From IMG/VR virus record IMGVR_UViG_3300027983_000068, positions 1-32,237 of that record: a DNA stretch of 32,237 nucleotides; one strand, given 5' to 3'. Positions 24 through 17,577 of the stretch are shown piece by piece; position 1 is the first letter of the stretch; each line of letters starts with the position of its first letter. The position numbers were made by a program, and so were the translations under genes. Below the pieces are notes generated by a model. That model was not told where the DNA came from and did no database searches. It saw only the letters and a program-made list of their open reading frames with translations. Source of the stretch: a virus.

Positions 24-398
24 TTACTCGACCCCACCCTCGGTTTTGTTCCTTCCATCCTTGCTTTTGTTTCTAAGTTCGAGTGCACGCCGGATGTTGC
101 AGGAGCGATGAGCGGGTGCCAGTAGACTGTCCGGGTCGTCGGGTGTGACGTGGTCGGCCTGCCAAGGGTCTCCCGGTATGGCTCCTTGGCCGCAGAGCCA
201 GCACTGCTCCGCTGTGTCTCGGATTTGCTTGGCTCGAACGCGGTAGTTCCCTTTGTACAGCGAGCGTTTGCCCTTGTCCCTCTGGTGGTCTGCTGTGCGA
301 GCGTAGAGCGCTGCGCAGTCGTCGCACCGGCTGGGGTTCCGCATCAGGACACCGCACTCTAGGCACGGTTTGCGGAAACGGTGGGGGCTCATTGGCAC
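24..398 (-). CDS. HNH endonuclease
   Basis: This is a small HNH nuclease of 124 aa. It has an N-terminal zinc-knuckle-like region (CLEC and CDDC pairs, residues about 13-30) and a C-terminal HNH core: a CWLC pair, ADHVTP (the metal-binding DH), then APAHRSCNIRRA with the last His and Asn. In many siphophages an HNH protein of this size is encoded next to terminase and helps cos cleavage and packaging. Its place at the very left edge, with terminase missing and the portal at the other edge, fits that role, but this is inference. The frame opens with GTG at 398; an in-frame ATG at 392 is equally possible, and neither has a clear Shine-Dalgarno. It is separated by about 40 nt from the gene before it and is last in the visible operon. 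Confidence 0.85.
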   Translation of the reverse strand: MPMSPHRFRKPCLECGVLMRNPSRCDDCAALYARTADHQRDKGKRSLYKGNYRVRAKQIRDTAEQCWLCGQGAIPGDPWQADHVTPDDPDSLLAPAHRSCNIRRALELRNKSKDGRNKTEGGVE

Positions 399-439: not shown

Positions 440-1051
440 CTATTCCGCAATTACATTCGCGAGTTTCGACCAGACGTCGTACGACCAGATGGCGCCGCAG
501 GTGTGGCAGGTGGCGGATTTATCTGGGCTGAGCCTGAGCCGGCCGGTACACCGGGTGTCTCCTTCGGATACCTTCGGGCACCGTGGCGGTTTCGTTTTGC
601 GGACGGAACCGTTGACTACTTGGATTAACGAGTCGTGTCCGTGTTTGATCTCGAGTGTCAGGTCTCCGGCTGCTGGGTGGTGGCAGGCCCACCAGTCTGC
701 GAGCGTGAGGAGTTTGTTGCAGAGCCCGAGGACGTCGGTTGGTGTTTCGCTCCTGAGGTCGCAGCGGTCGATGAGGTCTTCGACCCATGGTGTCAGGACC
801 GACCGGATGTCGGTCCTCTTGTCGAGTAGCGACAAGACGTGGAGGTTTGCTGGTGTGCCTCCTGATGTGGATCGGGTTGGCCGTTCGGTTTCGATTTTGA
901 CTGGTACTTTGAGCCAGTCGGTTTGTCCGAGGAGGGCGTGGAGTTTGGGGATTTCGCGGAGTCGTTTGACTGTGAACAGCAGGCAGTATTCGCAGATGAC
1001 CCAGTCGTCTTCTTTCTCACCTTCGCAGGCTGCGCATCTGGTGGTGGTCAT
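440..1051 (-). CDS. Two-zinc-finger protein of unknown function
   Basis: A 203-aa protein with a CxxC pair at residues 6-9 (CAAC), a second at about 20-23 (CEYC), and a C-terminal set made of a CPK..C region and CHTC followed by GAIWSYDVW, which looks like a treble-clef or zinc-ribbon end. The middle is helical and has no motif I recognise. Start ATG at 1051 is chosen because it forms an ATGA overlap with the dUTPase stop (1048-1051), as elsewhere in this operon. Similar zinc-ribbon proteins occur near HNH/terminase ends of actinophage genomes, so nucleic-acid binding is likely, but no specific role can be claimed. I checked it as a candidate DatZ and found no HD-phosphohydrolase motif. Confidence 0.8.
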   Translation of the reverse strand: MTTTRCAACEGEKEDDWVICEYCLLFTVKRLREIPKLHALLGQTDWLKVPVKIETERPTRSTSGGTPANLHVLSLLDKRTDIRSVLTPWVEDLIDRCDLRSETPTDVLGLCNKLLTLADWWACHHPAAGDLTLEIKHGHDSLIQVVNGSVRKTKPPRCPKVSEGDTRCTGRLRLSPDKSATCHTCGAIWSYDVWSKLANVIAE

Positions 1052-1473
1052 CGGCCGGTGCTCCCGAATCCTTGGTCGCCTCTGGTGGTCGAGGGGAGTT
1101 CTTTGACGCCGTAGATCTCGGTGCGTGCTGTGAGGTTCGGCATGACTACGAGTTGGGCTATCCGTTCGCCTTTCTTGAGGTGGATGTCGTTGGTGCTTGT
1201 GTTGGTGACGGTGGCGTACAGCGGCCCGGTGTACCCGGTGTCGATGATGCCTTGTTCGACTCGGAGCCCTCGGTGTTTGTAGGTGCTGCTGCGTCCACAG
1301 AGGAGCAGCCATGTCCCTTCTGGTGCTTTGACTGAGCACCCAAGGTCGATGTCTGTGACGGATTCGGCCCACGCTATTTGGTCTTCGACTACGTACAGGT
1401 CGAGGCCGGCGTCGTCGTCGTGTGCACGGGTTGGTGGTTGGCCGGTGTAGAACAGCCGCAGGGGTTGGTTCAT
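1048..1473 (-). CDS. dut: dUTPase (trimeric dUTP diphosphatase)
   Basis: Hydrolyses dUTP to dUMP and PPi, which keeps uracil out of phage DNA and feeds dTMP synthesis. All five family motifs are present in the 141-aa product: AGLDLY (motif 1), GRSS (2), GIIDTGYTGPL with the catalytic Asp (3), KKGERIAQLVV (4) and the P-loop-like RGDQGFGSTGR at the C-terminus (5). Length is normal for the homotrimeric class. A longer reading frame extends upstream, but the start ATG at 1473 is fixed by the N-terminal family match (NQPLRLFYTG) and by ATGA overlaps at both ends. It lies in the purZ operon, so it probably acts with the neighbouring nucleotide enzymes in shaping the dNTP pool. Confidence 0.96.
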   Translation of the reverse strand: MNQPLRLFYTGQPPTRAHDDDAGLDLYVVEDQIAWAESVTDIDLGCSVKAPEGTWLLLCGRSSTYKHRGLRVEQGIIDTGYTGPLYATVTNTSTNDIHLKKGERIAQLVVMPNLTARTEIYGVKELPSTTRGDQGFGSTGR

Positions 1474-1862
1474 TGGGACATCTCCTTGGTTAGTGAGTCG
1501 ATGGCGTGGTCCATGTTGCTGTGCGTCTCTAGTCTTAGGTAGGCGAGGGTCCATGAGGGTTTTAGGTTTGGTGCGTAGATGGCTGTTGGTATCCCGTGCA
1601 GTTGGGCGTGTTGGATCTCTAGGATCACACCGATGGTGAGCACTGTTGGTGTGAGGAGCGCTAGGAGCCCGTCGCATTCTTCGAGGAGTGCGAGGTTGGC
1701 CGCTTGGAGGACCGGGGAGGGGCTGGTGTCTCTCGGGACCCTCCAACCCGCTGAGGGGTCGAAGACTGCGCAGGAGACCCTAAGGAGGGACGCTCTGGCC
1801 CAGTCTTTGTGTGTGTCGGTCCCTTGGTCGATTGCTGACGCTAGGTAGATTACTTTTGTCAT
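1470..1862 (-). CDS. Nucleoside 2-deoxyribosyltransferase-like protein
   Basis: A 130-aa protein that looks like the nucleoside deoxyribosyltransferase / deoxynucleotide N-hydrolase superfamily. It opens with a beta strand and substrate loop (VIYLASAIDQGT), has an Asp-containing segment (EECDGLLALL) and the typical VILEIQHAQLHGIPTAIY block, whose Glu matches the catalytic nucleophile of the family. Members either swap bases between deoxyribosides or cleave the N-glycosidic bond of deoxynucleoside monophosphates. The start ATG at 1862 overlaps the MazG-like stop by ATGA; a longer frame upstream is a shadow. Being in one coupled operon with purZ and the MazG-like gene suggests a role in the purine deoxynucleotide pool, possibly removing a competing deoxyadenosine species. 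The substrate cannot be read from the sequence. Confidence 0.65.
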   Translation of the reverse strand: MTKVIYLASAIDQGTDTHKDWARASLLRVSCAVFDPSAGWRVPRDTSPSPVLQAANLALLEECDGLLALLTPTVLTIGVILEIQHAQLHGIPTAIYAPNLKPSWTLAYLRLETHSNMDHAIDSLTKEMSQ

Positions 1863-2212
1863 TTCCCGGGTCCTTTCGGGTGCTCGCTGGCTGCGACTGG
1901 TCCGGGCCAGCCTTTGACGTTCCTGACGCGTTGCGCCATCCTCGCGTAGATGGCGATGTCGTGCCACGAGTCGTCACTGGGTGCGATCCCGTCGGCGTAC
2001 GCTCCCATGACTCGGGCGATCTTCCCGAGTGTGTAGAAGGCGATCCCGAGTTCTTCGGGTTCGACTTTGCCTCGCAGTTCGGGTTTGAGCATCAGCATCA
2101 CATCGCCGATGATTTTGAGGTCGTGGGAGCCGTATTCGATCACTTTGGGGAGTAGCGATGCGAGTTCGTTGTCGGTGGTGTCTTCCCACCACGTCTCTAG
2201 GTAGTTGCTCAT
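1859..2212 (-). CDS. MazG-like NTP pyrophosphohydrolase, MazZ candidate
   Basis: A 117-aa all-alpha protein of the phage MazG-like group. Visible signatures are EYGSHD at residues 26-31, EELGIAFYTLGKIARVMGAY at about 53-72 and PSDDSWHDIAIYARM at about 78-92; their acidic residues match the metal-binding helices of all-alpha NTP pyrophosphatases. MazG enzymes turn NTP or dNTP into NMP and PPi. In cyanophage S-2L the MazZ member makes dGMP from dGTP, which is the PurZ substrate. Here the gene starts (ATG 2212) inside the stop of purZ with an ATGA overlap, so the two are translationally coupled. The MazZ assignment rests on that coupling and on PurZ identity; the MazG-like fold itself is more secure than the substrate. 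Confidence 0.7.
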   Translation of the reverse strand: MSNYLETWWEDTTDNELASLLPKVIEYGSHDLKIIGDVMLMLKPELRGKVEPEELGIAFYTLGKIARVMGAYADGIAPSDDSWHDIAIYARMAQRVRNVKGWPGPVAASEHPKGPGK

Positions 2213-3270
2213 GCCCAATCTCCTGCCACTGTGTCGGGTCCGGTCCCTACGAGGCTCACTAACGCCCCGCATTCGCGTTGGACGTCTAGGATGGTTTGTT
2301 GTGCACGGCCGGGCAGTTGGTCTAGTGGCCCGGTCCAGTTGGCTACTTCTGGTATGGCGTGGTCCAGCATGGTTAGGCAGATCGAGACGTGGGCCCCTGC
2401 TCCGTTGGCTTGTATTGCGTCTCGGACGAGTTCGGAGTCCCACGCACCGACCCGGCGTACTTTCCGGGTGACGGTGGTGAGTTCGGGTTCGAGGTTGAGT
2501 TCTGCCCATGTGGTTTCGCCTTTGAGTGGTCCGCTGTTACCTGAGACGCGGATTGGGTTGGCTCTGGCGACGACGTACACGTGGAAGTCGTCGATGTTGT
2601 CTGCCCATGGGCTGAGTCCGGCTGCGGCTAGGAAGTCCACTGCTCTGGCGTCGCCGGAGGTGCACTGTGGGTAGTGGCCGGCGTGGAGGCCGAGCCCGTA
2701 CCCTTGGGTCCCTTCGATGACTACGTGGTGCTCGTCGTCCAGTGCGGCTCTGAGGACTGCTGCTGTGTCTGCGGCTGGTGGTCTGTTCAGTATGGTTTCT
2801 TGGTCCCAGATCCGTGCTGTGCGCATGAGCCGTTCTGCTCTGGCGGCCCCGATGCCTTTGCCGGTGGAGCCGAGTCGCTCGTTGAGTCCGGCCCATGTCT
2901 CGGTGGTGATGTGGTGCGGTTCGAGGATGGTGGCTTGCCAGTCTATGTAGAGCCGGTCCCAGACTGGGTGGCCGTGTTGCTCGAGGAGTGTGGCCTCGTG
3001 GGTGAGTACTGAGATGTCGATCTCGGAGCCGGCTGCGATGACCAGTTGGGCTTGGTGGTTGGTTACTGCGGCGACTGGGATGGTCCTGAGTCGCCATGGG
3101 GTCCGGGGTCCTTCGGGTCCTTGGCCGAGGACGGTGTGGCCGGCGTTGGGTCCTCCGATCCGGACGCATGTGACGGGTTGGTTTCTTTGCTTGGTGAGGT
3201 GGCCGGCGATGGCTCCTTTGCCTTCGGAGCCGTATTGCCCTCCGACGACTACTGACAGTTTGCTGTTCAT
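2209..3270 (-). CDS. purZ: PurZ-type N6-succino-2-amino-dAMP synthase (adenylosuccinate synthetase homologue)
   Basis: A 353-aa homologue of adenylosuccinate synthetase, shorter than cellular PurA (about 430 aa). The first loop reads GGQYGSEGKGAIAGHL (residues 10-25): Ser15 replaces the catalytic Asp of the PurA motif GDEGKG, the change reported for phage PurZ. Other family blocks remain: RIGGPNAGHTV, the STGKGIG region, IEGTQGYGLGLHAGHYP (PurA has EGAQG..LD..GTYP), SGNSGPL in place of the GxGPxPTE loop, and RRVGAWD with CLTMLD. PurZ joins dGMP and aspartate, using ATP or dATP, to make the succino-precursor of 2-amino-dAMP. ATG 3270 is chosen for its GGAAGG site 8 nt upstream and for the family N-terminus; the in-frame extension upstream is low-complexity. 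The gene is first in a coupled operon with the MazG-like, deoxyribosyltransferase-like and dUTPase genes. Confidence 0.88.
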   Translation of the reverse strand: MNSKLSVVVGGQYGSEGKGAIAGHLTKQRNQPVTCVRIGGPNAGHTVLGQGPEGPRTPWRLRTIPVAAVTNHQAQLVIAAGSEIDISVLTHEATLLEQHGHPVWDRLYIDWQATILEPHHITTETWAGLNERLGSTGKGIGAARAERLMRTARIWDQETILNRPPAADTAAVLRAALDDEHHVVIEGTQGYGLGLHAGHYPQCTSGDARAVDFLAAAGLSPWADNIDDFHVYVVARANPIRVSGNSGPLKGETTWAELNLEPELTTVTRKVRRVGAWDSELVRDAIQANGAGAHVSICLTMLDHAIPEVANWTGPLDQLPGRAQQTILDVQRECGALVSLVGTGPDTVAGDWA

Positions 3271-3595: not shown

Positions 3596-5731
3596 TCATT
3601 GGATTAGTCCTCGGGCGTCGCGCAGTTGGTGTCCGTCGTAGTGTTTGAGTAGCCTGACGGTGGCGCCTTTCCCGGGTTCGGTTTGTTGGATCTCGAGGTA
3701 CCCGTCGGTGTCGAGTTCGTCTAGGGCTCGGTCTAGTGTGTGGCGTTTGTATGCGCTTGTGATTGTGAGGGCGTCCCTAATGCTTTTGCGGCTTGGGGCT
3801 GTCCATTGGTCTAATTCTGTTAAGTAGGTGGAGACTGCGGTCATGGCGCTGGTCGGTTTGATTTTCCCTTCGGCTGTTGCTGTTGCTAGTTCTATGCGTG
3901 TGTTTGTGAACTCTGGGTCTGTGGAGTCGATGATGTAGTCGCCTGCGAGCCGCCCGACCGAGTGGGCTCGTACTTGGCCGTGGCGGTCTTTCTCGATTGT
4001 GAGGCGGATTTTCCCGATGTGCCCGGGTGCTGGTGGGTCGATGGCTTCGCAGGACAGGTAACTGCCGTCGATGACTCGTTTCTTGGCGATCCCGCCGATG
4101 GCGTACCCGCTGGCACGTCCGTCGGTCCCTTTGGGTAGGTGGTCGATTGTGATGACGCAGGCTCCGAGTTTGTGTGCGAGGGGTTTGAGCATGGCGCGCA
4201 TCGCTGTGGTGAGTTCGTCGTTGTCGACCGTTTTGGCTCCTAGCATCGGCATGAGTTCGCCTAGGCTGTCAATGACGACGATGTCGGGCCGGTACCGTGT
4301 CATCTCGGTGAGGAATGCGACGAGCCCGGTTCGGTCTTCTGGTTCGTAGATCCGGAAGTGGCTTGGGTTGCCGATTTTCTCGGGGTTGGCGCCTAGTAGT
4401 AGGAGCCTCTCGGCGATTTCTTCGGCGCCGTTGTGGTCGATGTCGAGGTACACGGCGGTTTTCCCCGCTGCGAATCCTTGGGCGATGGTGGTTTGGGCGA
4501 TCCAACTTTTGGCGGTCTCGGGGTCTCCGAATAGCCCGTTGATCCGGCCGGCGTAGAAGAGTGCGTGTCCGGCTTCGGTGGCGAGGTACTCGGGCTGTAA
4601 CGGCGGGCGCCTCTCACCCGTCAATACCCAAGAGAGGTCAGCGTAGGTATCTCCGGGGGCCTCGGACGGCTCGGTGGTGTTCTCGGGCCCCGGAGGGCTC
4701 TCGAGGCCTCGGAAGGCCTCCGTGAGGTCTTTGAGGATTGTCTCGCTGGCTGGCCGGTCCCCAAACCCGCCACCGGCCAGTTCCTTAGCCGCAGCCCGGA
4801 AATCCCCAGCGTGCCCGAGCCACGTGTAAGCAGCGAACTTCGACAGTGGCTGCTCGGTCGGGAACACGGTCGAACTCGAGAACACGAACAGGTGGTCACC
4901 GGGCCCCCCAGTGGTCGCACTGACACCGTCAGCCTTCCCCGGGCGCCTCCAGTAACCCTGCGGGTTGCCGTCCCGTTGCGCAGTGAAAACCCGCACCCAA
5001 CCGGCCGGTACCAAGATGTCGTCCCAAGTGGTCGCCGATGCGTACTGGTCCCCGGGCGAGTGACCGTCCCGGGTCGCGTTAGCCTCGGCACTGTACACCG
5101 GTTCGTCCCACACCGGCCGGTCGTCCAACGCGATCGTGAGCAGTTGGTGTAACGAGTCACGCTCCGCACCAGTCACCTCGGCGATCGACTCCGGGCCCCG
5201 AGTCAAGAACTCATACCGGCTCCCGGGTTGGTGACCGACCCGGGCCGGTGTCGGTGCGACGATAGCGAAACCACCCTCACCACGGGTCTCCGCAAGGATC
5301 TTCTTAGTCTGGTCGTACGCCAACCGCGTGTTAGGCAGTGCGGGTTCGTCAGTGACACGGACGTACATGTGCAAACCGCCACCAGCGCTACGACCCGAGC
5401 ACCCGTTGATCACCCTGTTCAGTAGATCGGTGGTCCCCTGTGCGTGGGCTGTGGCCAGTAACGCGTCCATAGCGCCGGCCGCGATCGAGGGGCCTTCCAC
5501 TTCCAGCAACTCCAACCGGCCAGAGACACGACCAGTGATCACACCGATCCCGTCGTAGTCCCCGGACTCGAGCCACTCCAGAACTTGGAGCCAAGACGGC
5601 CGTTCGTTCTGGTACTTGGACCAACTGGTGTGTGGCCGTTTCGAGCGGTCTTGGTGGCTGGGTACGACGCAGCAACCCGCGTCGTACCACGCGTGGGCCG
5701 CGTCCAACAGCGTGGTCTGTGCAGTGTTCAC
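3596..5731 (-). CDS. Primase-polymerase/helicase fusion
   Basis: A 711-aa replication protein. The N-terminal part (about 1-210) is a bifunctional primase/polymerase (AEP, PrimPol) domain: GIGVITGRVSG, then LELLEVEG (residues 73-80), where a Glu-x-Glu (77, 79) stands in the place of the usual metal-binding Asp pair, and GGGLHMYVRV with His121. The C-terminal part (about 385-610) is a RecA-like RepA/AAA_25 helicase: Walker A-like GDPETAKSW (402-410; Ala instead of the usual second Gly), Walker B IVVIDS (484-489) and ITIDHLPK. The last 100 residues look like a winged helix (SAYKRHTLDRALDELDTDGYL). It starts with GTG overlapping the upstream stop (GTGA). In S-2L a PrimPol copies Z-containing DNA and no PolA is visible here, so this may be the phage's own polymerase. 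Confidence 0.88.
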   Translation of the reverse strand: MNTAQTTLLDAAHAWYDAGCCVVPSHQDRSKRPHTSWSKYQNERPSWLQVLEWLESGDYDGIGVITGRVSGRLELLEVEGPSIAAGAMDALLATAHAQGTTDLLNRVINGCSGRSAGGGLHMYVRVTDEPALPNTRLAYDQTKKILAETRGEGGFAIVAPTPARVGHQPGSRYEFLTRGPESIAEVTGAERDSLHQLLTIALDDRPVWDEPVYSAEANATRDGHSPGDQYASATTWDDILVPAGWVRVFTAQRDGNPQGYWRRPGKADGVSATTGGPGDHLFVFSSSTVFPTEQPLSKFAAYTWLGHAGDFRAAAKELAGGGFGDRPASETILKDLTEAFRGLESPPGPENTTEPSEAPGDTYADLSWVLTGERRPPLQPEYLATEAGHALFYAGRINGLFGDPETAKSWIAQTTIAQGFAAGKTAVYLDIDHNGAEEIAERLLLLGANPEKIGNPSHFRIYEPEDRTGLVAFLTEMTRYRPDIVVIDSLGELMPMLGAKTVDNDELTTAMRAMLKPLAHKLGACVITIDHLPKGTDGRASGYAIGGIAKKRVIDGSYLSCEAIDPPAPGHIGKIRLTIEKDRHGQVRAHSVGRLAGDYIIDSTDPEFTNTRIELATATAEGKIKPTSAMTAVSTYLTELDQWTAPSRKSIRDALTITSAYKRHTLDRALDELDTDGYLEIQQTEPGKGATVRLLKHYDGHQLRDARGLIQ

Positions 5732-6135: not shown

Positions 6136-6582
6136 TTAGAACGGTACTGGTGTCGCCCCGACCATACCCAGTGCGGTTTGCAGGTCGTTCAGACCCCCAA
6201 CTGCTGGTGCTGCTGCGACGGCACCCGACGCCCGCCCGTCCATGTAAGCCTTCGCTTTAGCCACAGCCTCCGGGCTGGTACTGGCGTCCTGCAAGATCCA
6301 AGGTGCGGTCTGCCCGGGCTTCGCCACTCCCTTACTCATCAAACCCAGTACCATCGTCCCGACGCGCGAACGTAACGAACCGACCAGCACGGTGGAGAAC
6401 CAAAGGACCTCCTCGTGCGTGGTCTGGTCTGTGATGTCGTGCACCGTGCAGCGCACGGCGTCACTGTCACCCATCTGAGTGACCATGCTGGTGATGTACT
6501 CGGTCGGTTCCACCACCAGTAGGTGGCCTTCGACTTCGGCTGGTTTTAGTACTGATCCTGCGGCTGGTGCTTGGAACTCCAT
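6136..6582 (-). CDS. Putative ssDNA-binding or recombination accessory protein
   Basis: A 148-aa protein beginning MEFQAPAAGSVLKPAEVEGH, with a beta-rich core (HLLVVEP, DAVRCTVHDI, EVLWFSTVLVGSL) and a GQTAPWILQD segment before a low-complexity Ala/Gly tail. Proteins of this layout are commonly found next to Cas4-family exonucleases in actinophages and look OB-fold-like, so ssDNA binding is a reasonable guess. I cannot show catalytic or DNA-binding residues. It has a good AGGAGG site 6 nt before ATG 6582 and follows the Cas4-like gene by 37 nt. The 126 bp after it (6010-6135) hold only the leader ORF. Confidence 0.65.
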   Translation of the reverse strand: MEFQAPAAGSVLKPAEVEGHLLVVEPTEYITSMVTQMGDSDAVRCTVHDITDQTTHEEVLWFSTVLVGSLRSRVGTMVLGLMSKGVAKPGQTAPWILQDASTSPEAVAKAKAYMDGRASGAVAAAPAVGGLNDLQTALGMVGATPVPF

Positions 6583-6619: not shown

Positions 6620-7408
6620 TTAGGCGGGAGTGTATGGGGTTAGTGGTTTGGTCTTCTGCATAGCGCGCACTTGGTACGCCACTGTCGCTAGGGCCCAACC
6701 GAGTTCGAGGTCCAAGATGTAGAGGTCGCATTTCGCTTGGCCTGCTGGCAGGTGGATCAGGAGCCCCTCAGTTAGGGACACACCCAACTCGCCGAGCGAC
6801 TTGGTGCGGCCGGTGTCGGGTGAGTATGGTGTCCCGTGTGCGTAGATCCCGATTTGGGTGGTGGAGCCGTGTGGGTATTTCGGTTCGTTCTGCCCGGTTT
6901 TGATGTCTGCCACCATCACGCGGCCGTCCGGGAGTCGCACGATCCGGTCGAAAGTCCCCGCTGCTTTGATCTCGTCACAAACGATGAACAACTCCGCAGC
7001 GACGATCTCGATCTTCTCCATGGCGTACACGTAGGCGCACACGTCTTCGTGGTACTCGGACGCCACGAACGTCTTGTCGTAGGTCCCCGCGTCCCACGCC
7101 TCGGTCAGTGAGTGTAACGCGGTCCCGGTGTTCGCTGCCGCGTCGGACTTCGCCGCTGCCATGGCTTTCTCCACGGCGTCACCAACTGCGCGTTTGTCCT
7201 CACGGTTCGACCCGATCAACGAGATCAAATCCGGACGGACACTCAAACCCAGAGCGGTCTGCCTACACATCCACTTCGCTAGAGCGGTTTTATCGTCCAG
7301 TGTCTTAGCGAGTGTGGACACTCGGGTGTAAGGCTCCGCCTTACCACCACCGGCCGGCTCGATCATCGGCCGGCCCCACCGGTCTCTCAACAACTCGGTC
7401 ACTGCCAT
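6620..7408 (-). CDS. Cas4/RecB-family PD-(D/E)XK exonuclease
   Basis: A 262-aa nuclease, probably a DNA end-processing exonuclease for recombination or replication. The core motif is seen in AGTFDRIVRLPDG (motif II Asp) and VMVADIKTG (motif III D-x-K), followed by TTQIGIYAHG with the Gln/Tyr of motif IV. An upstream His in NTGTALHSL fits the RecB-like motif I. The four-Cys iron-sulphur set of true Cas4 is not evident, so RecB-like is the safer name. ATG 7408 follows AAGGAG by 5 nt. It sits between a resolvase-like gene and a putative ssDNA-binding protein, a usual actinophage recombination cluster. Confidence 0.82.
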   Translation of the reverse strand: MAVTELLRDRWGRPMIEPAGGGKAEPYTRVSTLAKTLDDKTALAKWMCRQTALGLSVRPDLISLIGSNREDKRAVGDAVEKAMAAAKSDAAANTGTALHSLTEAWDAGTYDKTFVASEYHEDVCAYVYAMEKIEIVAAELFIVCDEIKAAGTFDRIVRLPDGRVMVADIKTGQNEPKYPHGSTTQIGIYAHGTPYSPDTGRTKSLGELGVSLTEGLLIHLPAGQAKCDLYILDLELGWALATVAYQVRAMQKTKPLTPYTPA

Positions 7409-7410
7409 GT

Positions 7411-7773
7411 TTATTCTCCTTCGGTTTGGGTTTGCAGGTCCCCGTAGCCTACGGCCCGGAGTAAGTTCACTAGGTCTGACAGCGGGAGTACAGCCGGCCA
7501 GTCCGCGATGGTGGACGGCCCGACCCCGTCAGGTCGGACGACCCCGAGGCGCAAGTCCACACCGTCGGTGCGGTCGGTCATCTGCCGGATCAAACCGACA
7601 AGGTTGATATTCCTGCGGGCTTTGACCTCCCAGTCGAGCCCGACCGTCCCGGTGATATCGGTTCCTTTCCTCCCAGCGCCAGCGCTGGCGGCGTAGGGGA
7701 ACCCGTGCTGCTGCAAGTACTCAGCCACGATGCTCTGGGTCGCGTAACCCCGGTACTTCCGGCTTTGGCTCAT
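7411..7773 (-). CDS. Holliday junction resolvase-like nuclease
   Basis: A 120-aa PD-(D/E)XK protein. The order is typical of the archaeal-type/phage resolvase group: an N-terminal helix (YATQSIVAEYLQQHGFP), then GAGRKGTDITG with the metal Asp, then LDWEVKARRN with the E-x-K pair. It should cut branched DNA during recombination or before packaging. The start ATG 7773 overlaps the upstream stop by ATGA; a longer frame to 7803 is unlikely. The Cas4-like gene follows after 2 nt and its ribosome site is inside this gene's end. Confidence 0.75.
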   Translation of the reverse strand: MSQSRKYRGYATQSIVAEYLQQHGFPYAASAGAGRKGTDITGTVGLDWEVKARRNINLVGLIRQMTDRTDGVDLRLGVVRPDGVGPSTIADWPAVLPLSDLVNLLRAVGYGDLQTQTEGE

Positions 7774-8264: not shown

Positions 8265-8525
8265 TCAAGGGGAGATCAGGGACCGCGATTCTGCGTAACG
8301 CTCCAACCAGTCCCTGCGCAAGCCAGAACTGGGGAACGTACTCAAAGTGTTGTCGTACTTGTCGGTTGTTGAGATCACAACGGCCGCCCAGACGCTCGCT
8401 GGGAGGTCCACCGTGTAGACGACCTCGTCGAGGTCCCGCTGCCAAATGGTGACGTTGCTGGGTAACGGCCGGGTTAGGCAGTGGTCCACTGTCGCGTGCA
8501 GGTATTGGAACTTCGCTGGTATCAC
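8265..8525 (-). CDS. Hypothetical 86-aa protein
   Basis: Unrecognised protein, starting with GTG 8525 that overlaps the purB stop as GTGA. It has alternating strand-like segments (VTIWQRDLDEVVYTVDL, VWAAVVISTT) and no Cys pairs, signal peptide or membrane segment. Coupling to purB suggests co-expression with it but says nothing about function. A hairpin and a 139-bp gap follow. Confidence 0.65.
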   Translation of the reverse strand: MIPAKFQYLHATVDHCLTRPLPSNVTIWQRDLDEVVYTVDLPASVWAAVVISTTDKYDNTLSTFPSSGLRRDWLERYAESRSLISP

Positions 8526-9733
8526 AGGGCTCCTTCGGGTTGTGGTGTTCTCGGTTGTGGTGGTGAGTAGAAGAACAACGCGTCGAGCATCGCCAACGCC
8601 GGCTCGGGCTGGTCAGAGTTCCCGTCGGCGTAGATCCGGCGTGCGTGGCGTTGGGCCTCGGCGTACGGGTACCCGGCCAGTTGTAACGCGGTCTGGACCG
8701 AGTGCATCAGGACCCCGGTCCCTCCAGCCAAGTTGGTCGCAGCCCGTGGTACGTCCACGTGTAGCGACTCCAGTATCTCGGTCAGTTGGACGGTCATGTA
8801 GTGCAGCGTGCCACACATCAGAGGTAAGTAGGTCTTCTCGACGCTGGAATGCGCCATGTCCCGGTCGTGCCACTGCGCCACTCCAGCGGCCAGCGGTTCG
8901 TACCCGGAGCGCACGACACGCGCCAACCCGCAGATCCTCTCCAACCGGTTCGGGTTGATTTTGTGAGCCATGGCGCTGGAACTGGACCCGCCGACCTCGA
9001 GCACCTCCGATACGGATTCGTGCGCTAACAGCCGCAACTCGAGCGCGACAGCCTCCAGAAATGACGCCGCCACACCAGCAACACCGGCCCAGTGCGCCAA
9101 CCCGTCGCGCATGTAGATCTGGGTGGAGACCTGTGCGGGTGCGAGCCCGAGCGCTAACGCTGCGGACATCTCCACCTCCCGGGTCGTGTGCAGGTAAGTA
9201 CCGACCGGGCCGCTGATCTTGCAGATCGCGACCCCAGCCCGTGCGTCCCACAGTCGCTCGCTGCAACGCTCCGCTCCACGGGCCCAATAATCGAATAGGT
9301 GCCCGTAGGTCGATGGTGCTGCGACCTGCCCGTGTGTACGGCCGAGCCTTGGTGTGCCACGGTGCTCGGTGGTCATGCGTTCCAACTGGAGCATCAGATC
9401 GCCGAGCGAGTCGACCAGTACGGTGGTGGCGTCGCGCATCCGCACGCCGAGCGCCGTGTCGGTGATGTCGCTGCTGGTCAGACCTAAGTGGACGTGGTCG
9501 ACTCCCCACGCCTCGAGGAACCCGACCAGTTCGTGGCCGCAGCGTTCCGTGGCGGCCACCCAATCTTCGAGTTCCGGGCCCGCTGTGTTCTCAGCGTTGG
9601 CGAGCCAGTGGTCTGGTGCGTGCCCGTGCCCGACCTGTGCACGTAGGACCTCGACCTCGACGGTACGCCACAACTCCAGTGTGTACTCGTCGGACCAAAT
9701 GCTGGTCATCGCAGGCGTCGTGTAATTGTTCAC
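8522..9733 (-). CDS. purB: Adenylosuccinate lyase
   Basis: A 403-aa member of the fumarase/aspartase superfamily that removes fumarate from succino-purine nucleotides. Key blocks: YTTPAMTSIWSDE at the N-terminus, GLTSSDITDTAL (84-95), GRTHGQVAAPST (131-142; His134 matches the general-acid His of the RTHG motif) and the flexible signature loop GGSSSSAMAHKINP (248-261) with the catalytic Ser and Lys. The loop has Ala where most PurB have Pro (AMPHK) and Ile before Asn. It starts with GTG 9733, 8 nt after a GGGAGG site and overlapping the upstream stop (GTGA). With PurZ in the same genome its likely substrate is N6-succino-2-amino-dAMP, giving 2-amino-dAMP; normal adenylosuccinate is also possible. 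Confidence 0.92.
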   Translation of the reverse strand: MNNYTTPAMTSIWSDEYTLELWRTVEVEVLRAQVGHGHAPDHWLANAENTAGPELEDWVAATERCGHELVGFLEAWGVDHVHLGLTSSDITDTALGVRMRDATTVLVDSLGDLMLQLERMTTEHRGTPRLGRTHGQVAAPSTYGHLFDYWARGAERCSERLWDARAGVAICKISGPVGTYLHTTREVEMSAALALGLAPAQVSTQIYMRDGLAHWAGVAGVAASFLEAVALELRLLAHESVSEVLEVGGSSSSAMAHKINPNRLERICGLARVVRSGYEPLAAGVAQWHDRDMAHSSVEKTYLPLMCGTLHYMTVQLTEILESLHVDVPRAATNLAGGTGVLMHSVQTALQLAGYPYAEAQRHARRIYADGNSDQPEPALAMLDALFFYSPPQPRTPQPEGAL

Positions 9734-9951: not shown

Positions 9952-10420
9952 CCACCGGGATGAGCGTCGTGTTGTGACTGCGTGACCAATTACGTTGGTG
10001 CTCGTCGCAAATCGGGGCATCCAGCGAATTGAGATGCACCATCCAAGTGGCTTTGTTTGGTGTCGTCCGGGTCCGGGTCTCGAACTCGCAATCCCAGCAT
10101 GCTTCCCCGGGGCTAGCCGACGACGCAACGGGGACCTCGATCTGGAGTGCGCTGCGTACCACGTCCCTAACGAACTCCGGTGTGCTGGTGCCCTCGACCG
10201 TCACGCAAGTGACGACCTCCCGGCGGCCGTCGTACAGAGTGACTTCGACCCCGGACGCTTCGACCACGACCTCGACGGTGCGCTCGTCACCGAGATCCGT
10301 CTCGCGGACCAGTATCGCGTCTGGGCTCATGTCGTTCTCGACCTCGTAACCCAAGTCCTCGAGGGCCTGCGTGATCTCGTCCACGAGTGTTGCCTCGTTG
10401 TGTGTGCTGACTGCGTTCAT
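9944..10420 (-). CDS. Cassette-1 gene: 158-aa protein with zinc-like C-terminus
   Basis: First gene behind promoter element 1. The N-terminal ~100 residues (TQALEDLGYEVENDM, VEVVVEASGVEVTLYDGRR, TSTPEFVRDVVRSAL) resemble in pattern the ~95-aa proteins that follow elements 3 and 4 or lie beside them. The C-terminus adds CWDCEFE and an ICDEHQ segment that could hold zinc. ATG 10420 is fixed by GGGAGA at the end of the repeat element. Function unknown. It precedes the 73-aa gene and purB, so element 1 may also drive purB and the replication genes. Confidence 0.75.
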   Translation of the reverse strand: MNAVSTHNEATLVDEITQALEDLGYEVENDMSPDAILVRETDLGDERTVEVVVEASGVEVTLYDGRREVVTCVTVEGTSTPEFVRDVVRSALQIEVPVASSASPGEACWDCEFETRTRTTPNKATWMVHLNSLDAPICDEHQRNWSRSHNTTLIPVGE

Positions 10421-10530
10421 TTCGTATCTCCCTTGGTTTGCGGCCACGACCCCTCGCGACCTGTTAGGAACAGCCTACCATGCGGCCCCGGACGGGCCTA
10501 ACACTGGTACCCTCCCGGCGTGTCACACCC
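10421..10530 (-). promoter_or_regulatory. Promoter/operator/5'UTR element, copy 1
   Basis: Minus-strand order: TTAGGC (-35 region), 18 nt, extended -10 TGG-TAGGCT (10480-10472), then a 20-nt hairpin (10461-10442) and GGGAGA before ATG 10420. Inverted heptamers TGTTAGG/CCTAACA lie at 10497-10503 and 10462-10468 with exactly 28 bp between, as in the other four copies. The most diverged copy in its spacer and ribosome-site flank. Confidence 0.8.
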
Positions 10531-10645
10531 GGCCCAGTACCCAGACCACGACCAGCGTGGTCGCGGCTCCGAGAGCCGCACACCACGAGACGAACACCAG
10601 CAGAATGGCCGAGTTCCAGATGCGGAGTTGCGTTTGGGCTTTCAT
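10523..10645 (-). CDS. 40-aa single-pass membrane protein
   Basis: A short product, MKAQTQLRIWNSAILLVFVS followed by more hydrophobic sequence to a WVLGRV end, with one long transmembrane helix after a short basic N-terminus. ATG 10645 overlaps the stop of the Rpf-like gene by ATGA. Its 3' end touches promoter element 1. It could assist the secreted muralytic protein encoded just upstream, as small holin-like or accessory membrane proteins do, but this is only a context guess. Confidence 0.65.
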   Translation of the reverse strand: MKAQTQLRIWNSAILLVFVSWCAALGAATTLVVVWVLGRV

Positions 10646-12359: not shown

Positions 12360-12679
12360 CACGCCACCTCCGCTTCCAGAATGCGGACCTCGGACGTGGC
12401 CCAACGCCAACCGTAGTGGCTCAATTCTGACTCGGTCAGCGACGCTTCCCACAGGGCTTCCCACTGGATCGAATGCGCGACTTGCGCCTCGGCGCGTTTG
12501 GTCATCTGCGCGTGGCGCTTCGCTGCGAGGTCGGCGCTGCCACACCACGAGACCATGTCGCTCTTACCACCGGAGTTGTTGGTGAGTGTGGCGACCACGG
12601 CGTGTGTGTACCGGTGGTTCTGGCTGTTCCTACGGTAGACATGGCCGGTGTCCGTGTCGAGTGCTGTGTGTCGGTTCAT
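12359..12679 (-). CDS. Cassette-2 gene: 106-aa protein, paralogue of the 15675-15959 gene
   Basis: First gene behind promoter element 2. It starts MNRHTALDTDTGHVYRRNSQ and then YTHAVVATL and ends SEVRILEAEVA. The gene behind element 5 starts MNKHTATNPTTGRVYTRNSK, continues YSHVVVADF and ends FEVQILEAEVA, and the DNA around both stops is nearly identical, so the two are paralogues. A third, more distant relative lies at 13660-13965. The ATG follows AAGGGAG in the repeat. Function unknown. Confidence 0.8.
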   Translation of the reverse strand: MNRHTALDTDTGHVYRRNSQNHRYTHAVVATLTNNSGGKSDMVSWCGSADLAAKRHAQMTKRAEAQVAHSIQWEALWEASLTESELSHYGWRWATSEVRILEAEVA

Positions 12680-12785
12680 TTGATTCTCCCTTGTTAGCGG
12701 CCACGACCCCTCGCGACCTGTTAGGAACAGTCTATCATCCCGGAACCCGGAGCCCTAACACCAATACCCTCCCGGCGCGTCGGAC
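12680..12785 (-). promoter_or_regulatory. Promoter/operator/5'UTR element, copy 2
   Basis: TTAGGG, 18 nt, extended -10 TGA-TAGACT (about 12737-12729), then the 20-nt hairpin (12718-12699) and AAGGGAG. Heptamer pair at 12754-12760 and 12719-12725 with a 28-bp gap. The sequence from the -35 upstream (CGCGCCGGGAGGGTATTGG) is also conserved in other copies. Confidence 0.85.
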
Positions 12786-12789
12786 CCGG

Positions 12790-13089
12790 TCAGGTCCTAA
12801 CCCCGGGGCCCCTCGGCTGCCGGCCGGTCCTCTGCCGGCCGGCAGACCTCCGGACCTCCGCAGTACTGACACCACCCCAAATCCCATACTGCACCCAAGG
12901 CGTCGCGACAGCGAACTCGAGGCACTGGACCCGGACCGGACACCAACCGCAGATCGCTTTGGCCTTCTCCCGGGCGGCCGACTGCTCCTCGGAGACGCCA
13001 TCTGGGAAGAACAACTCCGGATCGACACCGATACACAGAGCGTCGTCCATCCACTGGTGAGCCACGTCGCCCGTCCACTGGTAAGTCAC
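12790..13089 (-). CDS. WhiB-family iron-sulphur regulator
   Basis: A 99-aa WhiB-like protein. The four cluster Cys are at residues 19, 47, 50 and 56 (DDALCIG, ICGWCPVRVQC), followed by the turn YGIWGGVS (68-75) and a basic Arg-rich tail that would contact DNA or sigma factor. WhiB proteins bind a 4Fe-4S cluster and act with the primary sigma factor in actinobacteria; phage copies can interfere with host WhiB control or switch phage genes. GTG 13089 overlaps the upstream stop (GTGA). The 3' end contains the perfect palindrome CTGCCGGCCGGCAG (12832-12845), and element 2 follows at once. Confidence 0.93.
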   Translation of the reverse strand: MTYQWTGDVAHQWMDDALCIGVDPELFFPDGVSEEQSAAREKAKAICGWCPVRVQCLEFAVATPWVQYGIWGGVSTAEVRRSAGRQRTGRQPRGPGVRT

Positions 13090-13966: not shown

Positions 13967-14251
13967 TCAGACCTCCAAGTAACCGAAAGCGGCCAAGGCG
14001 ACTGCGGTCGCAGTGACAACCCCGGAGAGCCGAGTTGCGGAGACTGCAGTGATCCCGCGCAAGTGGCAGATTAAGACGTGGCCATCGGCCTCGTGGATCT
14101 CCACGTGTGGGTTGGCCCCTGTGTCGTTCCGGTAGGCACGGATCGTGCCCATGTCGCTTACGAGGACTGTGAGGTCCTCGGTCTCGAGGATCTCGACCGT
14201 GTCAGCGAAGAGGAACGCCCGGTCTTGTGTGCTTGCTGCGTATGTTGTCAT
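13967..14251 (-). CDS. Cassette-3 gene: 94-aa small-protein family member
   Basis: First gene behind promoter element 3. ATG 14251 is fixed by AAGGGAGAATCAA in the repeat. The pattern (ETEDLTVLVSDMGTIRAYRN, HVEIHEADGHVLICHLRG, ATAVALAAFGYLEV) matches the 99-aa protein at 15376-15675 (VSVEFHENDGHYYVRLLHG, DAIVAAVLGYLDV), giving a shared xVEx-HE-DGH core and GYL-V end. These are probably paralogues. Function unknown. Confidence 0.75.
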   Translation of the reverse strand: MTTYAASTQDRAFLFADTVEILETEDLTVLVSDMGTIRAYRNDTGANPHVEIHEADGHVLICHLRGITAVSATRLSGVVTATAVALAAFGYLEV

Positions 14252-14358
14252 TTGATTCTCCCTTGTTAGCGGCCACGACCCCTCGCGACCTGTTAGGGTC
14301 AGCCTACCACATTAGAGCCCGGACCCCTAACACCAATACCCTCCCGGCGCGTCGAACC
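14252..14358 (-). promoter_or_regulatory. Promoter/operator/5'UTR element, copy 3
   Basis: TTAGGG, 18 nt, extended -10 TGG-TAGGCT (about 14309-14301), 20-nt hairpin at 14290-14271, AAGGGAG. Heptamers at 14326-14332 and 14291-14297, again 28 bp apart. A terminator-like hairpin stands just upstream. Confidence 0.85.
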
Positions 14359-14370
14359 CGGGTATGCAGG

Positions 14371-14909: not shown

Positions 14910-15211
14910 GCGACACCACTGACACGGTCGCCGAGCAGACCCGACACGAACGACTGGATGACCCGAGACATCGGACGCAGATCGTCGAGGTCGTCCTCCC
15001 AAGCCTCGAGGATGTCCGCAGCCTGTGGGAATCGTACGAGCAACTCGGCCACGATCTCGTTGATCACGGTGTTCAGTGCTTTCATGTCGATCGTGTTGCC
15101 GATCTCGGCGGCGCGGCACTGGAGGTACCGGCCGATCCTGAGTGCGTCGAGCAGTGTTTGGTTGTTGGCCTCGCTGGTGGACCCGGTGAGCCCGGTGAGT
15201 GCTCTGTTCAT
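14906..15211 (-). CDS. Cassette-4 gene: 101-aa helical protein
   Basis: First gene behind promoter element 4 (ATG 15211, AAGGGAG in the repeat). It is mostly helical (NQTLLDALRIGRYLQCRAAE, MKALNTVINEIVAELLVRF, a very acidic EAWEDDLDDL, then VIQSFVSGLLG). No motif recognised and no resemblance to the other cassette-first genes. It is followed by two coupled genes before the next hairpin. Confidence 0.7.
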   Translation of the reverse strand: MNRALTGLTGSTSEANNQTLLDALRIGRYLQCRAAEIGNTIDMKALNTVINEIVAELLVRFPQAADILEAWEDDLDDLRPMSRVIQSFVSGLLGDRVSGVA

Positions 15212-15320
15212 TTGATTCTCCCTTGTTAGCGGCCACGACCCCTCGCGACCTGTTAGGAACAGTTTATCATCCCGGGACCCGGACCCCTAACACCAATCCC
15301 CCTGCTGGCGTGTCGAGCCC
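15212..15320 (-). promoter_or_regulatory. Promoter/operator/5'UTR element, copy 4
   Basis: TTAGGG, 18 nt, extended -10 TGA-TAAACT (about 15269-15261), the best -10 of the five, then hairpin 15250-15231 and AAGGGAG. Heptamers at 15286-15292 and 15251-15257, 28 bp apart. Confidence 0.87.
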
Positions 15321-15332
15321 GGACATACGGAA

Positions 15333-15675: not shown

Positions 15676-15959
15676 CACGCCACCTCCGCTTCCAAGATTT
15701 GGACTTCGAACTTCGCGATGTCCAAAGGGAGAACCCCAAAATCGGAGGTCAACTTCCGCATCGCCTTCTCCGCGAGGTCGAGCCGGCTGGTCCAAGTCCC
15801 GAACTGAGGTGCGTCGTACTGGCCGCCGAGGACCACTGCCGCGACTCGGCCGTCAGTGTAGTAGAAGTCCGCAACCACGACGTGGCTGTAGGTGCGGGTC
15901 TTGCTGTTCCGCGTGTAGACCCGGCCGGTGGTCGGGTTGGTTGCTGTGTGCTTGTTCAT
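15675..15959 (-). CDS. Cassette-5 gene: 94-aa paralogue of the 12359-12679 protein
   Basis: First gene behind promoter element 5. MNKHTATNPTTGRVYTRNSK at the start, YSHVVVADFYYTDGRVAAVV, then a helix (LDLAEKAMRKLTSDFG) and the LEAEVA end. It shares start, end and 3' flanking DNA with the cassette-2 gene. The start ATG 15959 follows AAGGGAG. Function unknown; small and promoter-proximal genes of this type are often host-takeover factors, but nothing in the sequence proves it. Confidence 0.8.
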   Translation of the reverse strand: MNKHTATNPTTGRVYTRNSKTRTYSHVVVADFYYTDGRVAAVVLGGQYDAPQFGTWTSRLDLAEKAMRKLTSDFGVLPLDIAKFEVQILEAEVA

Positions 15960-16066
15960 TTGGTTCTCCCTTGATTTGCGGCCACGACCCCTCGCGACCT
16001 GTTAGGGACAGCCTACCATACGGGAACCCGGACCCCTAACACCAATCCCCTCCCGGCGCGTCGGAC
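15960..16066 (-). promoter_or_regulatory. Promoter/operator/5'UTR element, copy 5
   Basis: TTAGGG, 18 nt, extended -10 TGG-TAGGCT (about 16018-16010), hairpin 15999-15980, AAGGGAG. Heptamers at 16035-16041 and 16000-16006, 28 bp apart. It is the first promoter after the end of the structural and lysis operon, and directly borders the tandem 62-bp repeat. Confidence 0.85.
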
Positions 16067-16189
16067 CTCGGAATCCCCGCCTAATCCCCGGATTTCGAGG
16101 GATCACCGAGTATGAGACCAGCCCCGGGCTCGGAATCCCCGCCTAATCCCCGGATTTCGAGGGATCACCGAGTATGAGACCAGCCCCGG
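16067..16189. repeat. Two tandem 61-bp repeats, period 62
   Basis: Copies at 16067-16127 and 16129-16189 are identical over ctcggaatccccgcctaatc and onward to gagaccagccccgg. Each copy holds AATCCCCG twice and an ATCCC...GGGAT inverted pair. No gene is seen. They could be regulator-binding or recombination sites at the border between late genes and the promoter array. Confidence 0.9.
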
Positions 16190-16358: not shown

Positions 16359-16589
16359 TCACTCGTCGAAATACCAAGACAAGTCCTCCGAAAGGATCGT
16401 CTCCGGCGAGCGCTCCACCTGAGCACCAAACCCGAAAACCTGACTCGGGCCCTCGACCGGCGTAACCTCAGCCAGACACGCGAGGTTCAGAGACGTAGCC
16501 AACCGCAGCAAAGCCCGGATCTCCCGGATCGAAACCTCACCATCGAACCGGACCGACACCTCACCAACCTGCACCCGCACCCCAGCCAC
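16359..16589 (-). CDS. Hypothetical 76-aa protein
   Basis: Last gene of the long late operon. It begins VRVQVGEVSVRFDGEVSIRE after the start, followed by a helix (IRALLRLATSLNLACLAEV) and an acidic end (SEDLSWYFDE). GTG 16589 is the start, overlapping the exonuclease TAG by one base (TAGTG), the same junction as the gene pair at 17577. Function unknown. It is followed by 169 bp with no gene, which holds the terminator and palindromes. Confidence 0.65.
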   Translation of the reverse strand: MAGVRVQVGEVSVRFDGEVSIREIRALLRLATSLNLACLAEVTPVEGPSQVFGFGAQVERSPETILSEDLSWYFDE

Positions 16590-17353
16590 TAGACCGGCCG
16601 CGTCTCGCCGTTGCGCAGGACCTTCGCCCAAACGCCACACCCGGAACACTGCACCAACGGCCACGAACTCGACTTCGAACGAGACAACCCATGTGGCACC
16701 AAAGCGCCAGAGCCGCAGGAGTAACACGACGACATCGAGCCCGACCACAGACCGGCATGGGGAGTTTTGATCCAAGGCTGCAGGAGCAAGAACAACTGCT
16801 CAGTGATCACGACGTCTTGGATGTTGTAACGCCGGAACTTCGCCCAAGCCTTCTCGTCACCAGCCATGACCCGGTTCCACAGTTCCATCCCGCCAGTCTC
16901 CAACTTCGAGTCCAACCCGACAGCGCTCGTCACGTAACCGAGTTTGTTACTCAGCATTTTGAAATTGCGACGCATCACAGTCAGCAGGTCCACGTGCAAC
17001 ACAGGAGACGGAGGTACCAACCCAGCGAGCAGGAACTCCCTATTCATGTGTGGGATGTCGAACCGCACGTGGTTGTAACCAACCACGATGTCGGCGTCGT
17101 TCAGAGCCTCCCACGCAGCAGCCACCATCTCTTCCTTCCCACCAGCACGCTCCGAATAGAAGAACGGCCGCTTCTCACCTAACCACTTACCAGCGAAACA
17201 CAACATCCGGGAAGGCTCCACCACTTGCGAAGTGGAGACGTTCTGATCGAACAAACCCCAGACGTACGCCAACGCCGGGCTGGTCTCGATGTCTAAGGTC
17301 AGGACGCGCGGAGGAGCCGGGACTAGCAACCCCAAACCGCTGGCCAGCGTCAT
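16589..17353 (-). CDS. DnaQ-fold 3'-5' exonuclease with C-terminal zinc ribbon
   Basis: A 254-aa RNase H-like exonuclease. It has LTLDIETS (Asp21, Glu23; Exo I), DIVVGYNHVRFDIPHMNREF with the Exo II Asp, and RRYNIQDVVITEQLFLL with the Exo III Tyr...Asp, as in the YprB-type group. The C-terminal CYSCGSGAL and VQCSGCGVW form a CxxC...CxxC zinc ribbon, not needed for the nuclease fold and perhaps for nucleic-acid binding. There is no polymerase domain, so it is a free exonuclease. ATG 17353 makes an ATGA overlap with the upstream gene. Lying in the late operon rather than near the primase-helicase is unusual, but it may still serve replication or proofreading in trans. Confidence 0.85.
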   Translation of the reverse strand: MTLASGLGLLVPAPPRVLTLDIETSPALAYVWGLFDQNVSTSQVVEPSRMLCFAGKWLGEKRPFFYSERAGGKEEMVAAAWEALNDADIVVGYNHVRFDIPHMNREFLLAGLVPPSPVLHVDLLTVMRRNFKMLSNKLGYVTSAVGLDSKLETGGMELWNRVMAGDEKAWAKFRRYNIQDVVITEQLFLLLQPWIKTPHAGLWSGSMSSCYSCGSGALVPHGLSRSKSSSWPLVQCSGCGVWAKVLRNGETRPV

Positions 17354-17577
17354 GGTTTGGGACACAGCCCGCTACGGTGAGCGTACAGCGCGCCCTTACC
17401 CACCACGACCCCGTTGTCACCACAGACCAACGAAATCCGGGAGATGCTCAAAGCGCGATCCTCGATCGCGAGCACCAACGCACCCCGGTCAGGTTCCACC
17501 AGCAAGGCCAACGCCTTACAGACCGTGCACCTCAAAGGGACGAGTTTCGCGGCGTCCAACTCCGCAGCCAAACCCAC
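17350..17577 (-). CDS. Hypothetical 75-aa protein with CxxC
   Basis: Contains LRCTVCKALALLV near residue 16 and further Cys (VCGDNG, LCPKP), a possible zinc site with hydrophobic strands (GALVLAIEDRALSIS). GTG 17577 overlaps the endolysin TAG by one base. Longer in-frame starts would run further into the endolysin and are rejected. Function unknown. It precedes the exonuclease by an ATGA overlap. Confidence 0.6.
   Translation of the reverse strand: MGLAAELDAAKLVPLRCTVCKALALLVEPDRGALVLAIEDRALSISRISLVCGDNGVVVGKGALYAHRSGLCPKP

Follow-up and report, generated by a model that had tools for sequence, protein, structure and literature searches.

A PurZ0 gene cluster with a primase-polymerase in an actinobacteriophage record predicted to specify 2-aminoadenine DNA

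The PurZ locus and its surroundings

The window, which is the whole of one virus record of 32,237 bases, contains a gene for PurZ on its minus strand (ORF 3270..2209, 353 aa). The earlier note had placed this ORF correctly at 2209-3270 without stating the strand; read on the plus strand, this stretch is broken up by many stop codons. Upstream of PurZ on the same strand lie the genes of a primase-polymerase (PrimPol), an exonuclease, a RusA-like resolvase, and a PurB-like lyase. PurZ, g116, DmtZ, and DutZ follow one another consecutively, and each junction is an ATGA stop-start overlap, so co-translation of these genes is very probable. The features discussed below are as follows.

24..398 (-), HNH endonuclease, following the PurZ cluster here and in relatives
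1048..1473 (-), DutZ, dUTPase family, predicted dATP/dGTP/dUTP diphosphatase, overlapping DmtZ
1470..1862 (-), DmtZ, predicted NDT-like dAMP hydrolase/deoxyribose-5-phosphate transferase, overlapping g116
1859..2212 (-), g116, 117 aa, all-helical, proposed dNTP pyrophosphohydrolase with a weak MazG/DUF6378-like fold, overlapping the PurZ stop
2209..3270 (-), PurZ of the PurZ0 subgroup
3596..5731 (-), PrimPol, with an AEP domain (residues 15-185) and a RecA-like ATPase (about 392-536), the sole polymerase found in the record
6136..6582 (-), orf148, conserved neighbor (phrog_870), probably replication-associated
6620..7408 (-), PD-(D/E)XK exonuclease
7411..7773 (-), RusA-like Holliday junction resolvase, conserved neighbor
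8522..9733 (-), PurB-like adenylosuccinate lyase, predicted to convert dSMP into dZMP
12790-13089 (-), WhiB-family regulator (E 7e-19)
16589..17365 (-), DnaQ/PolB-type 3'-5' exonuclease (DNA polymerase exonuclease subunit family)
27700-28908 (-), group 1 glycosyltransferase among the head genes

The order PurB...PrimPol-PurZ-g116-DmtZ-DutZ-HNH recurs in many environmental contigs, whose relationship to the window emerged with a family alignment, which was required because a single-sequence scan of viral contigs gave no close relatives. The record terminates within the portal gene, leaving the genome incomplete, and no terminase was identified in its 32,237 bases. The WhiB-family gene, together with the actinophage relatives, indicates an actinobacterial host, and we hold with high confidence, as part of the explanation by Z deoxynucleotides developed below, that the window represents most of an actinobacteriophage genome. 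In the relative G006, a glycosyltransferase gene is likewise found near the portal gene. No tRNAs or Rfam families were detected in the window. A 128-nt leader-like element occurs five times on the minus strand (10405-10532, 12662-12789, 14234-14361, 15194-15321, and 15943-16070), leading into the start codons of small ORFs with a common ribosome-binding region, and contains the inverted repeat TGTTAGGG...CCCTAACA; it looks like a repeated promoter/operator unit. A perfect direct repeat of 61 nt, with 62 nt between the copies, is located at 16067-16189.

PurZ and its serine-type relatives

The reading of the 353-aa protein as PurZ, proposed in the earlier note, now finds support in its place in a tree, in a curated family model, and in the neighboring genes, and its class can be refined to PurZ0 rather than the PurZ type of S-2L and phiVC8. 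A maximum-likelihood tree of 68 proteins that included PurA and known PurZ places it outside PurA and inside the PurZ0 clade (37 rows, support 100/99), where it is grouped with the environmental phage proteins L018 and L094 (100/99); both ATP-type PurZ and PurA stand apart from that clade. The NCBIfam PurZ model NF038379 is matched with 325.6 bits against a cut-off of 300, while the protein stays far below the cut-offs of the PurA equivalog models (235.6 versus 368 and 160 versus 395.6). The protein also matches Pfam Adenylsucc_synt (E 6e-41) and the PHROG family "2-aminooxy adenylosuccinate synthetase" (E 1e-81). Its best solved relative in a PDB search is 7vf6 (E 6.5e-83), which is the PurZ0 of Gordonia phage Archimedes (PMC12884076), and the weaker matches are archaeal PurA (8e-45), phiVC8 PurZ (5e-30), and S-2L PurZ (2e-22). 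PADLOC assigned PurZ to no defense family.

The motif GGQYGSEGKG at residues 10-19 and the replacement of the catalytic Asp by Ser were read correctly at the outset; the Ser is S15, at the position of Asp13 in PurA. Other key residues are H45, K270, and D303, the second of which occupies the site of E. coli R303, a residue that contacts ribose O2' in PurA (PMC8342488). D303 lies in a TMLD motif common to archaeal PurA and other PurZ0 proteins, the counterpart in ATP-type PurZ being NFxNY, and by this likeness would belong to a guanine-type donor pocket. Taken together, S15, H45, K270, and D303/TMLD lead us to predict that the enzyme uses dGMP as its substrate and GTP as its donor. The PurZ0 structure paper reportedly points to GTP for PurZ0. 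One sentence of PMC12884076 assigns the ATP and GTP preferences of the two enzymes the other way round, but the introduction of the same paper states that PurZ uses ATP, which likewise points to GTP for PurZ0. The SGNSGPL loop is also present, at about residues 243-249, but the name "Asp-binding loop" given to it earlier is probably wrong, because PMC8342488 describes contacts of the aspartate with a different loop and with the counterpart of E. coli R303, and places the loop with the conserved Val at the sugar C2'.

Two features that had been taken as marks of PurZ lose that value. Archaeal PurA chains in the PDB have 339-340 aa, and therefore 353 aa is not short for the archaeal branch; loops similar to SGNSGPL exist in chromosomal proteins. 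A genome scan found GSEGKG proteins of about 330-390 aa with an SGNSGPL-like loop on bacterial and archaeal chromosomes, and all 12 of the tested genomes carrying such proteins encode full-length PurA as well. Because Ser and an SGNSGPL-like loop occur together in this large chromosomal clade, Ser, length, and loop are insufficient alone; the exchange of Asp for Ser is by itself no proof of a Z-DNA enzyme, and it is gene context that settles the matter. Nine chromosomal Ser-type proteins were tested with the PurZ model and reach 207-246 bits, short of the cut-off of 300; in the maximum-likelihood tree the chromosomal proteins lie outside the PurZ0 clade.

These Ser-type paralogs (loci L095-L173) are distributed over many bacterial phyla and one haloarchaeon in a conserved gene cluster, exemplified by L169:8058-11059, L102:2353-7227, and L106:8364-12156. 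Near the Ser-type gene are encoded a fusion of an RNase_H_2 exonuclease with an AAA_18 kinase (62 of 79 loci), a dCTP-deaminase-like protein (67/79), and sometimes a deoxynucleoside kinase (13/79). No published account of the cluster was found in the literature searched. It may constitute a cellular nucleotide-modification or defense cassette and also a source of PurZ0, whose origin the chromosomal relatives may reveal.

Companion enzymes and the polymerase

DmtZ retains, in alignment, all of Tyr6, Asp12, Pro57, Asn77, Glu103, and Trp124, the catalytic/binding residues of Ghobes DmtZ (PMC12884076), and among 50,697 phage records it is matched only in phages of Arthrobacter and Gordonia that belong to groups with PurZ0. 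DutZ matches the dUTPase family (E 4e-25) and is 40-50% identical to DutZ of PurZ0 phages, and most of its 25 top matches among isolates belong to phage groups with PurZ0. The PurB-like protein, aligned to T. maritima PurB, has intact HLGLTSSD, GRTHG, and SSSAMAHKINP motifs and the fumarase-superfamily signature. Counted against the reading as a Z-DNA phage are the identities of about 28-50% between DmtZ and DutZ and their relatives in characterized phages, and the score of PurB on its best NCBIfam model, TIGR00928, which at 256.6 bits is below the cut-off of 326.2. Ghobes, Hiyaa, and Galactica have annotated PurB-like genes, and such genes were found in at least 35 of the 81 environmental PurZ0 loci, a minimum figure since many loci are short.

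The relatives of g116 are restricted to 31 of the 50,697 phage records, apparently all of them PurZ0 phages. Their numbers by host, 18 in Microbacterium, six in Gordonia, and five in Streptomyces phages, equal the counts of PurZ matches, and the remaining two carriers, Olihed and Parvaparticeps, have PurZ directly upstream. Among environmental PurZ0 loci, g116 was present in 81 of 81 and DUF5664 in none. In the three Arthrobacter phages that were read, the slot after PurZ is occupied not by g116 but by a DUF5664-type gene, whose product is a dATP/dGTP hydrolase (PMC12884076). Sequence comparison gave little for g116: Pfam has no family, NCBIfam returned nothing useful, hhalign gave a probability of 0.2 against DUF5664 with non-overlapping PHROG sets, and the MazZ-type proteins of J2, ZP6, and Bm1 gave no hhalign match. 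Identification of g116 as MazZ or DUF5664 was accordingly rejected. The structural model is a four-helix one (pLDDT 88) with K22, E25, E53, D80, and D84 conserved (116-residue numbering). As it lacks the canonical EExxE...ExxD metal motif, g116 was not classed with MazG. Foldseek found nothing significant in the PDB for this model; the fold scores are Z 5.3 for S-2L MazZ and 3.7 for E. coli MazG, with other weak matches to iMazG, and viral DUF6378 proteins rank next after the family itself, none of these matches being strong enough to count as proof for a helical bundle. The positional replacement of DUF5664 together with this weak fold evidence makes a dNTP pyrophosphohydrolase the likeliest role. 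We thus consider it probable from the model and the position that g116 acts as such an enzyme, proposed to be of the dATP/dGTP type, which makes it a candidate for the missing enzyme of PurZ0 phages outside Arthrobacter.

Polymerases of families A, B, and C (PF00476, PF00136, and PF07733) were found neither in the window nor in 11 relatives of 32-94 kb, and DatZ (YfbR-like HD dATPase, PF12917) is absent from the same set. The Prim-Pol domain (PF09250) was present in all 27 relatives tested. PDB sequence searches with PrimPol and DmtZ gave chance or RecA-type matches only, or none. Exact terminal repeats of 99 bases in G006 (34,080 bases) and 123 bases in G011 (32,186 bases) are what complete, circularly permuted genomes would show; IMG/VR classes both as linear. 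L018 and L094, which have the closest PurZ proteins, encode PrimPols unlike that of the window, so the replication module has been exchanged independently. The PurZ0 phage group has the DNA polymerase I DpoZ-1 (PMC12884076). The DpoZ-bearing L027, L049, and L051 are nested in the maximum-likelihood tree (support 97/91) with L014, L035, and L052, in which no DpoZ was found, which suggests repeated swaps, with DpoZ probably acquired or lost on more than one occasion in PurZ0 phages. In other branches, the PurZ0 records L062, L071, L074, L086, L091, and L090 (37-94 kb) have PrimPol and no family A/B/C polymerase.

A proposed route to Z-DNA and its relation to known systems

The window thus contains a compact, nearly self-sufficient gene set for replacing adenine with 2-aminoadenine, and the virus is very probably a Z-DNA phage, where the presence of Z in the DNA, like the activities of the enzymes, is what we infer from the genes. 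With high confidence, the phage would make Z deoxynucleotides using PurZ0, its own PurB, and pool enzymes, and PrimPol would copy them. PurZ0 would convert dGMP, aspartate, and GTP into dSMP, which the phage PurB would split to yield dZMP, and host kinases would convert dZMP into dZTP. DutZ and, if its proposed role is right, g116 would cut dATP and dGTP to the monophosphates, which would starve the cell of dATP and feed dGMP to PurZ, while DmtZ would destroy dAMP and could recycle the Z base into dZMP. PrimPol, rather than a Z-selective DpoZ, would then copy the genome with nucleotides depleted of dATP and enriched in dZTP, as in S-2L, where PrimPol combined with pool cleaning provides the precedent (PMC8065100).

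That the gene is an ordinary phage-borne PurA, boosting adenine synthesis from IMP, is scarcely credible: the fold family is the same and the short body resembles that of archaeal PurA, but Ser replaces the catalytic Asp, Lys replaces R303, all PurA cut-offs are missed, and the protein lies inside the PurZ0 clade. It might instead be a phage-borne version of the chromosomal Ser-type enzymes, forming a different product and no Z-DNA, since GSEGKG and SGNSGPL are common to both and nucleotide enzymes adjoin both genes. This is highly improbable given the scores and tree position of the chromosomal proteins described above, and DmtZ and g116 tie the locus to PurZ0 phages.

The other alternatives concern the copying of the DNA. 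A DpoZ-type polymerase I could be hidden in the missing part of the genome, as the record stops inside the portal gene with no terminase identified and DNA polymerase I occurs in every isolated PurZ0 phage examined; we regard this as rather unlikely, because no PolA was found in the 11 relatives, two of which have terminal repeats, and all 11 have PrimPol. It is also conceivable that the enzymes act as proposed but that substitution is partial, the DNA holding a mixture of A and Z because PrimPol does not distinguish them. S-2L PrimPol indeed has no preference between dATP and dZTP (PMC8065100), and both DpoZ and DatZ are absent here, so this deserves some weight, yet it is the less probable outcome where DutZ, DmtZ, and g116 accompany PurZ, and characterized DutZ and DmtZ remove dATP and dAMP (PMC12884076). 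The preferred reading, in which Z-DNA appears to be copied by the primase-polymerase without a dedicated aminoadenine polymerase, differs in this from the isolated members of the class. Its stronger form, in which a nonselective PrimPol replicates fully Z-substituted genomes in several PurZ0 lineages with complete reliance on pool cleaning by DutZ, DmtZ, and g116, and in which the steps from dGTP to dZMP are all viral, seems to us evenly balanced; g116, a PurZ0 partner so far without a name, would then represent a new branch of dNTP pyrophosphohydrolase. If PurZ0 phages without DpoZ are truly widespread, control of the nucleotide pool alone would be a repeated solution, and the locus would offer a compact gene set for Z-DNA production in cells.

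The kind of system is known, and the combination of genes is new. Phages with PurZ0 include Gordonia Ghobes and Archimedes, Arthrobacter Wayne, Streptomyces Galactica and Hiyaa, and Microbacterium phages (PMC12884076). The window resembles them in a PurZ0 of 44-53% identity, in DutZ, in DmtZ, which most of them have, and in g116, which is found outside Arthrobacter, whereas the Arthrobacter PurZ0 phages that were read carry DUF5664 in its slot; Ghobes, Hiyaa, and Galactica also share a PurB-like gene. Unlike the window, where none was found, the isolated PurZ0 phages examined carry a DNA polymerase I (DpoZ-1). With archaeal PurA, represented by that of P. horikoshii (5k7x/2d7u), the window PurZ shares the short body and the guanine-binding TMLD motif, but the P. 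horikoshii enzyme keeps the catalytic Asp and the Arg of TVTGRRRRVG, both of which are changed here. The chromosomal Ser-type paralogs share GSEGKG, the SGNSGPL-like loop, and nucleotide-metabolism neighbors, while they stand apart from the PurZ0 clade, under the PurZ cut-off, with an exonuclease-kinase fusion and dCTP-deaminase-like proteins nearby. Reliance on a Z-selective polymerase is the accepted picture for Z-DNA phages, and cyanophage S-2L, which lacks PolA, is the stated exception (PMC8342488). As in S-2L, PrimPol is the sole polymerase found here and pool enzymes adjoin PurZ (PMC8065100, PMC8342488). S-2L differs in having an ATP-type PurZ, DatZ, MazZ, and a PrimPol that differs in its C-terminal helicase, where the window has PurZ0, DutZ, DmtZ, g116, and a phage PurB. 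By this analogy, the group to which the window belongs looks like the S-2L solution realized in the PurZ0 branch with other pool enzymes.
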